Positions 6,215-14,860 of a stretch of 24,148 nucleotides of DNA are shown here, piece after piece; positions within the stretch are counted from its first letter, which is position 1, and the number at the start of each line of letters is the position of its first letter. The notes below the pieces were generated by a model. It saw only the letters and a program-made list of their open reading frames with translations. It searched no databases and was not told the DNA's origin. The position numbers and the translations under genes were made by a program. The stretch comes from a virus. Where the stretch lies: positions 1 through 24,148 of the IMG/VR virus record IMGVR_UViG_3300047510_000196. One strand, 5' to 3'.

Positions 6215-6885
6215 AGAACCCGTCTCCCCATAGAATTTTGTTGAACCTGAACTTTAGGTTCGTAAACGTCAGACCAGTTAGCAAGGATGCTCTTTTGCAA
6301 TACCTCTGACGTATCGATGCCCTTGTTCTTCATTGTTTCCAATTTAGAAATCATTAACTTTACGGCTCGGTCTGTCATCGGCTTCTTTAACTTTTTCCGC
6401 ATTTCAACAAAGTCGTTCCAATCAGTTTTATTCAACCAATCAGGTAGTTCCGTAGGAACGACGGGTTTCCTTTCTTTTATTTGGTTATTGGTTATTGGTT
6501 TATGGTTATTGGTTAGTTGAACGTCCGTTGAACACTCGTTCAACACCTGTTCAGCAGACGTTAAGCGTTTGTTCTTCCGTTGTTCAGCAGATGCTTTGCC
6601 AGCTAGTGATTTCTTGCTAACAAAGCTACGATATTCCTCAAGTTCTGCATCACAACGTGACTGCCTCCAGACACCATTTTCAAGCCGGAAATAGGCTCTG
6701 AGCAGTAGCTCGACTTGGTCGGCTGGTAACCCGACTTGCAAAGCAAGAACGTCTATATCGTTAGGAAGGGGCTTTTCAGAGTCGTAGTACATCCAGATCA
6801 GGCGCAAATATGCCATTGCCTGAGAATCTGTTAGGCGTGAAGTAGCCTTAATGAAGTCACCGATATGGTGCTGGTAGTAGTGCAT
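6211..6885 (-). CDS. DUF1376 (YdaU-like) replication initiator-type protein
   Basis: The first ~85 residues match DUF1376: YYQHHIGDFIKATSRLTDSQ (3-22), AYLRLIWMYYDSEKPLPND, and LLLRAYFRLENGVWRQSRCD. Members are phage replication proteins in the position of lambda O or DnaT. A low-complexity linker (about 108-146, with TNNHKPITNNQIKERK) follows, then a C-terminal helical part, NKTDWNDFVEMRKKLKKPMT. The linker's DNA contains tandem TTGGTTA heptamers and an 11-bp phased GTT array (6481-6592), a candidate origin. GTGAGG precedes the ATG at 6885. Initiator function is inferred from family and context. Confidence 0.85.
   Translation of the reverse strand: MHYYQHHIGDFIKATSRLTDSQAMAYLRLIWMYYDSEKPLPNDIDVLALQVGLPADQVELLLRAYFRLENGVWRQSRCDAELEEYRSFVSKKSLAGKASAEQRKNKRLTSAEQVLNECSTDVQLTNNHKPITNNQIKERKPVVPTELPDWLNKTDWNDFVEMRKKLKKPMTDRAVKLMISKLETMKNKGIDTSEVLQKSILANWSDVYEPKVQVQQNSMGRRVL
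6481..6592. repeat. Candidate replication origin: AT-rich heptamers plus 11-bp phased iterons
   Basis: On the plus strand, 6481-6515 holds four or five TTGGTTA-type heptamers, suitable as a melting element. Directly after it, units of 11 bp begin with GTT at 6516, 6527, 6538, 6549, 6560, 6571 and 6582: GTTGAAC, GTTGAAC, GTTCAAC, GTTCAGC, GTTAAGC, GTTCTTC, GTTCAGC. The copies at 6527 and 6538 also form an inverted repeat. About one unit per helical turn, inside the initiator gene, resembles the arrangement of the lambda O-gene origin. Confidence 0.55.
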
Positions 6886-9724: not shown

Positions 9725-9916
9725 ATGGAATTGCTGGACTATTTACTTAAAACCTACGACATCAAGAATGACCGCCAATTAGCCCTAACGCTAGGCGTAT
9801 CAACACCTACCATTAGCAAGATTCGTAACGAGCGATATGGCGTATCGGCTAGCATGATGATTGCCATTCACAAGACCTTTGCTATGCCTATTGAAGAAAT
9901 CGAGAGTTTCCTATGA
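9725..9916 (+). CDS. Small Cro/XRE-type helix-turn-helix regulator (63 aa)
   Basis: MELLDYLLKTYDIKNDRQLA is followed by an HTH: QLALTLGVSTPTISKIRNER (18-37), with V-S at the turn and T-I-S-K-I-R as recognition helix. The remaining ~25 residues complete a five-helix Cro-like fold. It is likely a DNA-binding regulator of one of the phage operons; the repeats at 3384-3439 and 7303-7322 are candidate targets, but nothing directly links them. AGGAGAAAAC gives a strong start. The next gene starts within its stop (ATGA). Confidence 0.8.
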   Translation: MELLDYLLKTYDIKNDRQLALTLGVSTPTISKIRNERYGVSASMMIAIHKTFAMPIEEIESFL

Positions 9917-10410
9917 GCTATGAAGAAATACCAATAACTCAAGCACACTTGAAAGAAATCTTAGATTACGACCTAGAAACAGGCGTATTTATCTGGAAAG
10001 TAAGCAAAGGTAGGCTTTGCAAGAAAGGCAATACTGCTGGCTCAACAGATAGTTGGGGTCACTTACAAATATGTATCAATGGCAGGAAACGATTGGCACA
10101 TAGACTTGCATGGCTCTATGTATATGGAACGGAACCCAAACAACAAATTGACCACATTGATGGCAATAAACAAAACAATTCTATAAGCAATCTTAGGGAT
10201 GTTACCCAAACAACAAATCAACAAAATAGGACAAGAGCTAGAAAAGATAGTTCTACTGGATTTATGGGTGTCTCAAAAACTGGATCAAAATACCAAGCAT
10301 CTATAAAAGCAAATAAAAAGACTTTTTATTTAGGAATGTTCAAAACAGCACAAGATGCATTTGATGCTTATAAAAAAGCTAAATTACAACTTCATGGGAT
10401 CGCAATATGA
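9913..10410 (+). CDS. HNH-AP2 homing-type endonuclease (165 aa)
   Basis: The protein has an HNH_3-type nuclease domain: HRLAWLYVYGTEPKQQIDHI with H63 and D80-H81, then DGNKQNNSISNLRDVT with the distal Asn. After it comes an AP2-type DNA-binding domain (about 113-160): GFMGVSKTGSKYQASIKANK, FYLGMFKTAQDAFDAYKKAK. Phage HNH-AP2 proteins are typical mobile endonucleases. A+T content is raised. It sits exactly between the HTH and MazG-like genes, with ATGA overlaps at both ends and TATGAG at each junction, as if inserted at a gene boundary without damage to either neighbour. Confidence 0.9.
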   Translation: MSYEEIPITQAHLKEILDYDLETGVFIWKVSKGRLCKKGNTAGSTDSWGHLQICINGRKRLAHRLAWLYVYGTEPKQQIDHIDGNKQNNSISNLRDVTQTTNQQNRTRARKDSSTGFMGVSKTGSKYQASIKANKKTFYLGMFKTAQDAFDAYKKAKLQLHGIAI

Positions 10411-11439: not shown

Positions 11440-11940
11440 ATGGATAAGAAGATATTGACAGCGGAACGAGCTAAGGAGTTGCTTGATTATGACCCTTGTA
11501 CAGGCAACTTCTATAGAAAAGTGTCTTTAACGAATAGCGTCAAAGTTGGCGATATTGCTGGGTCAAAGACTCAAAAAGGATATCTTGAAATATGGGTCGA
11601 TGGGAAAAGATACCTAGCCCATAGATTAGCTTGGCTCATTGAGACTGGTGAGTTCCCTAAAGAACAAATAGACCACATTAACTGCATAAAAACAGATAAC
11701 AGAATTGCAAATTTAAGATGTGTAAGTGATTCCATCAACAAGCAAAACAGGCGAGAAGCGTTAGATAAAAATAAATCTGGACTACTTGGTGTTAGCTGGA
11801 TGGAAAGAGCTAAGAAATGGAAAGCTCAAATACAACTAAACAAAAGTGTTATCTATCTAGGATTGTTTGAAGATAAAGAACAAGCGTATCATGCCTATGT
11901 GCAGGCAAAACGATCCTTACATGAAGGCTGCACTATTTAA
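11440..11940 (+). CDS. Second HNH-AP2 homing-type endonuclease (166 aa)
   Basis: Same architecture as the 165-aa protein at 9913: nuclease core HRLAWLIETGEFPKEQIDHI (H63-like, D-H pair) with NLRCVSDSINKQN, and an AP2 domain with LLGVSWMERAKKWKAQIQLN and IYLGLFEDKEQAYHAYVQAK. The two are clear paralogues but diverged, so they probably arrived separately rather than by recent duplication. It is the last rightward gene and overlaps the spanin gene tail-to-tail by 8 nt. The weak-to-fair TAGGATTTGT precedes its ATG. Its A+T content is higher than its neighbours'. Confidence 0.9.
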   Translation: MDKKILTAERAKELLDYDPCTGNFYRKVSLTNSVKVGDIAGSKTQKGYLEIWVDGKRYLAHRLAWLIETGEFPKEQIDHINCIKTDNRIANLRCVSDSINKQNRREALDKNKSGLLGVSWMERAKKWKAQIQLNKSVIYLGLFEDKEQAYHAYVQAKRSLHEGCTI

Positions 11941-12409
11941 GTTTTTGATCTGATCTAATTGAATCATATTGTGCATAGCATTGCTTCAGCGCGAGTCTTA
12001 GATTATCTGCCTCTATTGCTATTTTGACAAAATCTTCTGCACTTTCTCGATAAAGCTGTCTTGGGGTACATCCACCTTGTCCAGAACTGGTGGAACCGGA
12101 CACGGTACTGCCTTGGGTGGAGATGGACGGACGCTGCTGCAGGCTGTTAGAGAGAGCAACAGCCCTAGCAGTAATATTCCTGATTTCCGCATCTTTCTCT
12201 TTCCTTAACTTGTCAGCGTTAGACTGTAGTTCCTGCTCCTTAGCCCTAGCTTCTTCCTGAGCCTTAGCATACTGAGCATATTGCTCGGCTTTCTCTTTAT
12301 CCCAAGCCTGTTGAACCTCAGCCTTGCCTAGCTGGTGTCCTTGATACAGACCTCCGGCTCCTGCAACGCCTATGGCTGCTACAACGCCAATGATGACGTA
12401 AGGGTTCAT
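11933..12409 (-). CDS. Rz: Rz-like inner-membrane spanin (158 aa)
   Basis: N-terminal membrane anchor YVIIGVVAAIGVAGAGGLYQ (4-23), then a long charged coiled coil (about 28-90, e.g. EKAEQYAQYAKAQEEARAKE), and a C-terminal region with two Cys. This is the i-spanin layout: it spans the periplasm from the inner membrane and joins the outer-membrane lipoprotein Rz1 to fuse the membranes at lysis. A complete Rz1 is nested inside it in another frame (12019-12192), which confirms the call. ATGA overlap with the gene upstream. The start is the ATG at 12409. Confidence 0.9.
   Translation of the reverse strand: MNPYVIIGVVAAIGVAGAGGLYQGHQLGKAEVQQAWDKEKAEQYAQYAKAQEEARAKEQELQSNADKLRKEKDAEIRNITARAVALSNSLQQRPSISTQGSTVSGSTSSGQGGCTPRQLYRESAEDFVKIAIEADNLRLALKQCYAQYDSIRSDQKLK
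12019..12192 (-). CDS. Rz1: Rz1-like outer-membrane spanin lipoprotein, nested in Rz (57 aa)
   Basis: From ATG at 12192, in a different frame from Rz, the product begins MRKSGILLLGLLLSLTACSS: a lipoprotein signal with lipobox L-T-A-C, so C18 would be lipidated. The mature part is Pro-rich (VRPSPPKAVPCPVPPVLD), as in lambda Rz1, and ends VQKILSK. AAGG and GGAAAG lie upstream of the ATG. The gene lies wholly inside Rz, which is the lambda-like embedded arrangement. It should interact with the Rz C-terminus to complete lysis of a Gram-negative host. Confidence 0.9.
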   Translation of the reverse strand: MRKSGILLLGLLLSLTACSSVRPSPPKAVPCPVPPVLDKVDVPQDSFIEKVQKILSK

Positions 12410-13028: not shown

Positions 13029-13203
13029 TTGCTTCCTCTTTCATTACTTCAGGTTTTAGCAATTGATCTGGACAAGTACCTGTTACAGCACATCGTGGAC
13101 GCTGGCATCTTGGTTTATCCCAATTATCAGGGTCTTGACAAAAATACCTAAACCGATCACAACCGACTAAACTAAGAATGAACAACAGCCAAAGCACGCG
13201 CAT
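12961..13203 (-). CDS. Phage lipoprotein, Cys/Pro-rich (80 aa)
   Basis: The start is at ATG 13203: MRVLWLLFILSLVGCDRFRY, with lipobox L-V-G-C and lipidation expected at C15. The mature part contains FCQDPDNWDKPRCQRPRC and VTGTCPDQLL, a Cys-rich pattern I know from other phage lipoproteins close to endolysin genes. The predicted place is the periplasmic face or the outer membrane. Role unknown; superinfection exclusion or a lysis accessory are possible. It overlaps the endolysin gene by 32 nt and the following membrane gene by 68 nt, a long overlap in which both frames look real. Confidence 0.75.
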   Translation of the reverse strand: MRVLWLLFILSLVGCDRFRYFCQDPDNWDKPRCQRPRCAVTGTCPDQLLKPEVMKEEANEPPKVNQPIPCNDAGAARCGN

Positions 13204-13810
13204 ATTGAGCCTCTCTATCTTCCATACCCTTGTAACCACCGTTAATGACCTTAGTCATGCCTCGTAAGTCTGTGGCATCAGCAAATCGATTTAACTTATT
13301 TTCCGACCAAAACCAGCAAGCAGATTGGGCTGCTCCTTCGAATGTCTGCATATATTCAGCAGCTTCTTGAGGCGTAATCTCAAGGCTAGCAGCAAACCAG
13401 AAATAGTTGTTTTTGCCAGTGAGTTGAATCAGTCCTCGTCCCTTGTACAAACTTCCCTCGCCAGATGCTTCGTCACCGTTACCCATGCGGTTAGCGTAAA
13501 CAAGGTTAGCGATCTTATCCGGCTGTTTAGCGTAAGACTTAGCCTGTGAGTCAGTCTGAAAATACTTAGGAAATACTTTAAGAAGTCCTGAAGCAGAGTA
13601 GTTCAGGTTTTCCGTTAGCCACACAAATCCACCTGATTCGTGATGACATTGGGCTAGGAATGAGGCTATACGGTTCGGAGTCGTTATTTCGTATTCTTCT
13701 AGGAGCGACTTGCCGCCTAGTTCGGTCTGTTGGCTGAATAAAGCGTCATACCATTGATCCGGGTACTTAGAGTGAGGAATAAATTTCCTGAAAGCATTAC
13801 GGTCAATCAC
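13172..13810 (-). CDS. GH19 endolysin (chitinase/lysozyme-like)
   Basis: A compact 212-aa glycoside hydrolase 19 domain, with no binding module or signal peptide. AQCHHESGGFVWLTENLNYS (53-72) holds the catalytic Glu (E58) and the second acid E67; KVFPKYF (78-84), VYANRMGNGDEASGEG (104-119), YKGRGLIQLTGKNNY (122-136) and TKVINGGYKGMEDR (about 186-199) are family blocks. Such phage enzymes cleave peptidoglycan glycan strands; without a signal it would need the holin to reach the wall. It overlaps the membrane-protein gene upstream by 8 nt. Confidence 0.9.
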   Translation of the reverse strand: MIDRNAFRKFIPHSKYPDQWYDALFSQQTELGGKSLLEEYEITTPNRIASFLAQCHHESGGFVWLTENLNYSASGLLKVFPKYFQTDSQAKSYAKQPDKIANLVYANRMGNGDEASGEGSLYKGRGLIQLTGKNNYFWFAASLEITPQEAAEYMQTFEGAAQSACWFWSENKLNRFADATDLRGMTKVINGGYKGMEDREAQYARALAVVHS

Positions 13811-14108
13811 GATACATCCTCTCTATCAGTATCTCTCGCCGTAGTTCCTTCATCTTCCTAATCTCGATGATAGCGGCTTGATGAGCGTAGTACATATCGT
13901 AGTACATGAAAGCTAGAACGGGCATTATGATGAAGAACATTAGTAAGACAGCCATAACCACCACAATTAATGACCAAGGGACATTCTCATCATCGTGCTT
14001 CTTGTCGTTAGCCACATTAGAAACATTCCCCATGTAATTACGAACACCGTTGCCGATACCCATGCCGCTTTTGCCCGGATTTCCGCTATCCTTTTTCTGC
14101 GTCGCCAT
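13803..14108 (-). CDS. Single-span membrane protein of the lysis region (101 aa)
   Basis: A Gly/Asn-rich N-terminal ~45 residues (KSGMGIGNGVRNYMGNVSNV) leads to a membrane span, about 45-70 (SLIVVVMAVLLMFFIIMPVL), and a basic helical tail RKMKELRREILIERMYRD. Its first ~47 codons overlap the end of the ATT-initiated gene in another frame by 142 nt if the ATG at 14108 is used; ATGs at 14063 or 14033 would reduce this. No strong Shine-Dalgarno was found at 14108. Family not recognised. Confidence 0.65.
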   Translation of the reverse strand: MATQKKDSGNPGKSGMGIGNGVRNYMGNVSNVANDKKHDDENVPWSLIVVVMAVLLMFFIIMPVLAFMYYDMYYAHQAAIIEIRKMKELRREILIERMYRD

Positions 14109-14659
14109 GATGCTATCTGAGCTAGCCTAAGTTCTTCTGCGTGAGCTTCTTCTTGCTCTTTGACGATACGCTGCCACATCTCCTCGAACTTGCTCCACAA
14201 TGCCCCTAACTCTGGTGGAGCCTTGTAAACCATCGTTTCGCGTATCTCAGCTAACATCGCATCAAGTCGAGAAGTAATCAATATCCGCTTTAATGCTCTC
14301 CTACCTATCGATTCTTCACCTTTATAGACCTGCTTGGCTTCTAACTGCTCCTTGAGGAATAGCTTACTAATCGCATCGTAAGCATCCATCAATGCGCCTA
14401 GCTGGTTGCCGATGTCAGTAAACACATCGTTAGGGTCAGCCTTGGCTATCTCCTGAACCCTCTGGACTTCAGCGACGTATTGCGCTTTCTGAGCCGGAGT
14501 TGGATTCCCACCTGTTACCTTGTCATACTGAGCCTTTAGATCGTCTAATACGCCCTTGACTTCACCTGCTGCACCCTTGATCTCTTTGTAAAGTTGACAG
14601 CCTTTCTTTACAGCAGCAACCGCAGCATTAGCAGCAGCAAGTAACGTTAGCGGATCAAT
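13967..14659 (-). CDS. Membrane-anchored helical protein with an ATT start codon (230 aa)
   Basis: The frame is protein-like from ATT at 14659, directly after the holin stop TAA and in the same frame: IDPLTLLAAANAAVAAVKKG, CQLYKEIKGAAGEVKGVLDD, then a long helical charged region (LKEQLEAKQVYKG, FEEMWQRIVKEQEEAHAEE) and a membrane span at about 199-218 (AWVSATVFVITWGMFLMWLT). No ATG, GTG or TTG occurs in its first 78 codons. GGAGG stands 5 nt before the ATT, a near-ideal Shine-Dalgarno. A GTG at 14425 would discard a clearly coding stretch. Unknown family; possibly a lysis or virion membrane protein. Stop-codon readthrough from the holin, or a sequencing change of ATG, are alternatives. Confidence 0.75.
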   Translation of the reverse strand: MDPLTLLAAANAAVAAVKKGCQLYKEIKGAAGEVKGVLDDLKAQYDKVTGGNPTPAQKAQYVAEVQRVQEIAKADPNDVFTDIGNQLGALMDAYDAISKLFLKEQLEAKQVYKGEESIGRRALKRILITSRLDAMLAEIRETMVYKAPPELGALWSKFEEMWQRIVKEQEEAHAEELRLAQIASWRRRKRIAEIRAKAAWVSATVFVITWGMFLMWLTTRSTMMRMSLGH

Positions 14660-14860
14660 TTATTCCTCCGAATTAGCCTTTTGATTCTTTTTGGCTATTT
14701 TCAAATGCTGATGCTTATACCAAGTGCTAATTATCAATCCGATAATACCTATTGCTAGACCACCTAGTGCAGCAAATTCGTTAGCTGTAAGACCAAAAAA
14801 AACGGCAGTCGCAGAACCGCCGTAAGTCGCCGCAGTAGATGCTTTACCTATGTCAACCAT
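14660..14860 (-). CDS. Small holin (two membrane spans, HP1-type)
   Basis: 66-aa protein: MVDIGKASTAATYGGSATAV, a first hydrophobic stretch at about 10-24, a short turn (TANEF), a second span (AALGGLAIGIIGLIISTWYK, 30-49), then a basic tail HLKIAKKNQKANSEE. Size, two spans and the charged tail fit a class II phage holin (HP1-like). It would form membrane holes that release the endolysin. The start is the ATG at 14860 with GAGG 6 nt upstream, and it overlaps the fibre gene by 8 nt; a TTG 12 nt upstream is not needed. It is followed without gap by the ATT-initiated ORF. Confidence 0.8.
   Translation of the reverse strand: MVDIGKASTAATYGGSATAVFFGLTANEFAALGGLAIGIIGLIISTWYKHQHLKIAKKNQKANSEE

Follow-up and report, generated by a model that had tools for sequence, protein, structure and literature searches.

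A phage gene family that appears to start at AUU, AUC or AUA behind a strong ribosome-binding site

A gene of unknown function, found beside the lysis genes of many freshwater phages, very likely begins at the very rare start codon AUU (or AUC or AUA, collectively AUH, or ATH in DNA) instead of AUG. The start codon is preceded by a strong Shine-Dalgarno (SD) site, apparently in order to keep translation weak, and start-finding software misses it. The example that led us to this family is found in a stretch of 24,148 nucleotides from the IMG/VR virus record IMGVR_UViG_3300047510_000196, which we call the window. The first-pass annotation of this sequence had proposed an ATT start for a 230-aa ORF located directly behind a holin gene. 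What it had read directly from the sequence is correct, and its interpretation is supported.

The ATT start and its conservation

The ORF is found on the minus strand (13967-14659). The minus strand reads GAG GAA TAA ATT, with ATT at 14659-14657, a GGAGG at 14669-14665 and a spacer AATAA at 14664-14660. The frame remains open for 230 codons, until 13967. The TAA at 14660-14662 is in frame immediately before ATT, and it is also the stop codon of the upstream ORF (14660-14860, minus strand, ATG start), a holin (phrog_20, E=1e-12; Pfam Phage_holin_2_3, PF16080, E=2e-10). The first canonical start in frame is a GTG at 14425, codon 79, so that 78 codons lack ATG, GTG and TTG. With initiation at ATT the protein would begin (M)DPLTLLAAANAAVAAVK. 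This arrangement is more than chance. A six-frame scan of the window for a strong SD before an in-frame ATH codon, with no nearby canonical start, returned only one convincing case, which is this ORF. Of the other four, three have a canonical start within 1-2 codons, and one is a weak candidate antisense to the 19178-19714 gene.

Close homologues in IMG/VR all align from residue 1. In the best 80, the codon at this position is ATT in 48, ATC in 22, ATA in 2 and GTG in 8, never ATG. A DNA-pattern scan which began at codon 2, leaving the start codon free, gave 78 loci: ATT 48, ATC 4, GTG 24, ATG 1 and GTT 1, the last one with a GTG just upstream. We then added two more distant clades, using queries from the GenBank records MW202462 and MW202484, and removed duplicates. 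In the resulting 239 distinct loci the aligned codon is ATT 91, ATC 17, ATA 2, GTG 79, ATG 37 and TTG 2, while 10 more use a GTG and 1 an ATG one codon upstream. This column is therefore the start column of the family, and ATH is its most frequent occupant in the loci sampled. It should be noted that metagenomic loci are not independent samples, and that most of ours come from scans which were not exhaustive. Thirty-six of the 37 ATG cases belong to a single AT-rich clade (38% GC) in which SD use is generally low (36% strong, versus about 65%). The only genome hit of the family, obtained with the alignment, is a partial one in a Chitinophagia MAG contig, too weak for host assignment. A search with the single protein gave nothing. 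The AT-rich clade may perhaps belong to phages of Bacteroidota-like hosts.

The neighbouring genes in the same loci show no ATH start: endolysin (ATG 39, GTG 9), the 101-aa transmembrane protein TM101 (ATG 60), spanin (ATG 50, GTG 9), holin (ATG 10), ORF147 (ATG 26) and tail fibre (ATG 23). Neither the host nor the phage thus has a generally altered start rule. No tRNA or known RNA family was found in the window.

Start codon and Shine-Dalgarno strength

A feature of this family is the association between ATH starts and the SD site. Outside the AT-rich ATG clade, a strong SD (duplex energy -5 kcal/mol or lower) is found in 102 of 110 ATH loci, but only in 8 of 93 loci with GTG, TTG or ATG starts (Fisher 1.7e-37). 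These energies were calculated with the standard 16S tail, since the host is unknown. Seven to eight ATH loci have weak SD matches. The commonest aligned spacing is 5 nt, as in the window. Other ATG-started ORFs in these loci have a strong SD in about 65% of cases, so the GTG form of this gene is SD-poor and the ATH form is SD-rich relative to their own genomes. GTG starts are mostly found 4-6 nt behind the upstream stop, and are mostly preceded by U.

The two forms interchange many times. On a tree of 220 proteins the ATH label changes at least 32 times on the best tree, and at least 19 times on well-supported branches. A test with phylogenetically independent pairs gave 19 supported pairs, about 15 of them with SD strength changing in the same direction as ATH and on average none in the opposite direction (median p 6e-5). 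Near-identical proteins may carry either start. For example, the proteins from two of our loci, L210 (ATT) and L272 (GTG), are identical over 180 residues, with different upstream DNA. The two start regions thus appear to be swapped as units together with upstream DNA.

In 70 of the 110 ATH loci the upstream gene ends in frame at codon -1 or -2. An in-frame stop at one of these positions is also found in 25 of the 32 loci where the upstream gene ends elsewhere. The consensus is GGAG(GNA)TAA(RAA)ATT. We read this as a portable border which supplies a stop codon for any in-frame neighbour and so insulates the gene from fusion. The loci are related, so the independence of this feature is uncertain, and we consider the insulating role to be no more than an even possibility. 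A mini-ORF ATG-GAG-GAA-TAA just before ATT is not general, only 29 of the 110 ATH loci have an in-frame NTG before the GAG.

The protein and its neighbours

The gene codes for a 230-residue protein which is predicted to be all-helical (mean pLDDT 75, pTM 0.51). A long C-terminal helix holds a hydrophobic segment (14009-14065, minus strand, about residues 199-217) preceded by RRRKR. It is probably a cytoplasmic helical protein anchored by its C-terminus, with an inferred N-in topology. No Pfam or PHROG family was found above cut-off, and no PDB fold match at E<=0.001. Viral fold matches with E<=0.001 are only uncharacterised phage proteins, and BFVD relatives are named 'Fragment', which suggests routine truncation by gene callers.

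The gene is followed by that coding for the 101-aa single-TM protein (13803-14108, minus strand, ATG start), whose start overlaps its 3' end, including the TM segment, by 142 nt in another frame (13967-14108). The two genes are linked in 98 of 101 close homologues. A GH19-like endolysin (13172-13810, minus strand, GTG start; phrog_181, E=5.6e-70) comes next, and an endolysin is found within 1.5 kb in 63 of 101 close homologues. An Rz-like spanin (phrog_312; DUF2514) is located at 11933-12409 on the minus strand. A lysis role is plausible, but only from position: the description of this ORF as a phage lysis gene in the first-pass annotation has no support from any recognised lysis domain. Two HNH_3 endonuclease genes, possibly homing endonucleases, are found near the lysis region on the plus strand (9913-10410 and 11440-11940), the second one with an AP2-like domain. 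A GGTTATTGGTTATTGG-type low-complexity stretch inside a DUF1376 gene (6485-6540) matches Moraxella phages at 91%.

Interpretation and comparison with known AUU starts

We consider it very likely that the gene is translated from AUH, presumably read by initiator tRNA as Met. The strong SD at 5-nt spacing would recruit the ribosome and partly compensate for the poor codon, giving a low rate of initiation. Other versions of the gene would reach a comparably modest start in a different way, through GUG, almost always without a strong SD and usually 4-6 nt behind the stop of the upstream gene. Selection therefore seems to act on low output of this tail-anchored membrane protein rather than on a particular codon. 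This last step is inferred without expression data: a low set-point appears somewhat more probable than not as the main purpose of the AUH start, although a GUG directly behind a stop could be efficient through coupling.

A less likely possibility is that AUU is used because IF3 discriminates against it, as in infC, so that the gene would be translated only when active IF3 is scarce, for example late in infection, timing membrane events. AUU, AUC and AUA belong to the class which IF3 represses (infC, sigR: PMC5472188), and ATG is almost absent in the close clade (1 of about 140). Nevertheless, the same gene repeatedly switches to GUG, which IF3 does not discriminate against in the same way (PMC5472188 groups GTG with canonical starts), so IF3 sensing cannot be essential. 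IF3 control, which the first-pass annotation had mentioned for infC, is somewhat disfavoured here by this interchange. In its most speculative form, which we consider improbable, a portable SD-stop-AUH module would time or throttle a tail-anchored membrane protein during lysis, in effect reading the state of the host's initiation machinery.

Obligatory termination-reinitiation, with ribosomes that finish the upstream gene restarting on the adjacent AUU, also appears unlikely. The 70 ATH loci with an in-frame stop at codon -1 or -2 are in its favour, and coupling is typical of the GTG form, with stops at -4/-6. On the other hand, in about 30 ATH loci the upstream stop lies elsewhere, up to -33 and in any frame, and the SD is strong in nearly all of them.

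ALTERNATIVES. Readthrough of the holin TAA or frameshifting, which would give a holin fusion, is refuted by comparison, even though both genes are contiguous and in the same frame in the window. The holin is upstream in only 22 of 139 close homologues. In the others, the upstream gene codes for a tail-fibre-like protein, a 560-900 aa protein, a hydroxylase-like protein and others (names based only on our reading of the sequences), ending at offsets from -33 to +2 in all frames, and canonical GTG or ATG starts occupy the same column in relatives. A downstream GTG or TTG start is also contradicted. The GenBank relatives MW202462 and MW202484 (L082:2501-3190 and L083:2501-3226 in our numbering of loci) are annotated 24 and 21 nt downstream of the family start, but downstream starts are found at scattered positions (codons 6-89), codons 2-36 are under strong protein-level constraint, and D2-P3 are invariant in 70 diverse homologues. 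A mutated or mis-sequenced ATG, the other alternative of the first-pass annotation, is excluded by the 110 distinct loci which carry ATH. Initiation at the overlapping out-of-frame TTG in ATTGA, followed by a frame shift, is contradicted by the 19 distinct loci with ATC or ATA, which lack that TTG, and the frame closes within a few codons.

AUU starts are already known. What appears to be new is a large phage gene family which repeatedly switches between AUH with a strong SD and GUG without it, we found no such report in the open-access literature searched. This family gives a natural, replicated data set on how evolution balances start codon and ribosome-binding site, and it shows that annotation truncates such genes.

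One known case is infC, coding for the initiation factor IF3, which starts with AUU in Escherichia coli and AUC in Streptomyces (PMC5472188). Like our gene, it belongs to a family with a conserved AUU or AUC start, expected to be weak and IF3-discriminated. The phage gene does not code for an initiation factor, so there is no autoregulatory logic, and its start interchanges with GUG. In Staphylococcus aureus, cvfC1 (AUU) and ccpN (AUA) have starts which are directed by an extended SD and conserved among relatives, and reporters give about 10% of AUG output (PMC13009471). These are cellular genes, and we have seen no recurrent switching to GUG without SD described for them. In E. coli pcnB (Binns and Masters 2002, cited in PMC13009471) an AUU start limits expression of a protein, but this is a single cellular gene. 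Streptomyces sigR has a GTC start, a different codon, which also keeps one protein scarce and is misplaced by annotation pipelines, IF3 repression was shown experimentally in that case (PMC5472188). Among phages, a genome announcement states that ten genes of phage f18SE start at AUU (PMC4599075), an annotation count for which we saw no further evidence. The closest phage example is terS (orf28) of Streptococcus thermophilus phage TP-J34, predicted to start at ATT behind a strong SD (AAGGAGGTggatgtATT; SD AAGGAGGT), with the sequence checked by resequencing (PMC3952083). It codes for a terminase subunit, unrelated to our protein, it is only a prediction, and it does not show a family-wide pattern.
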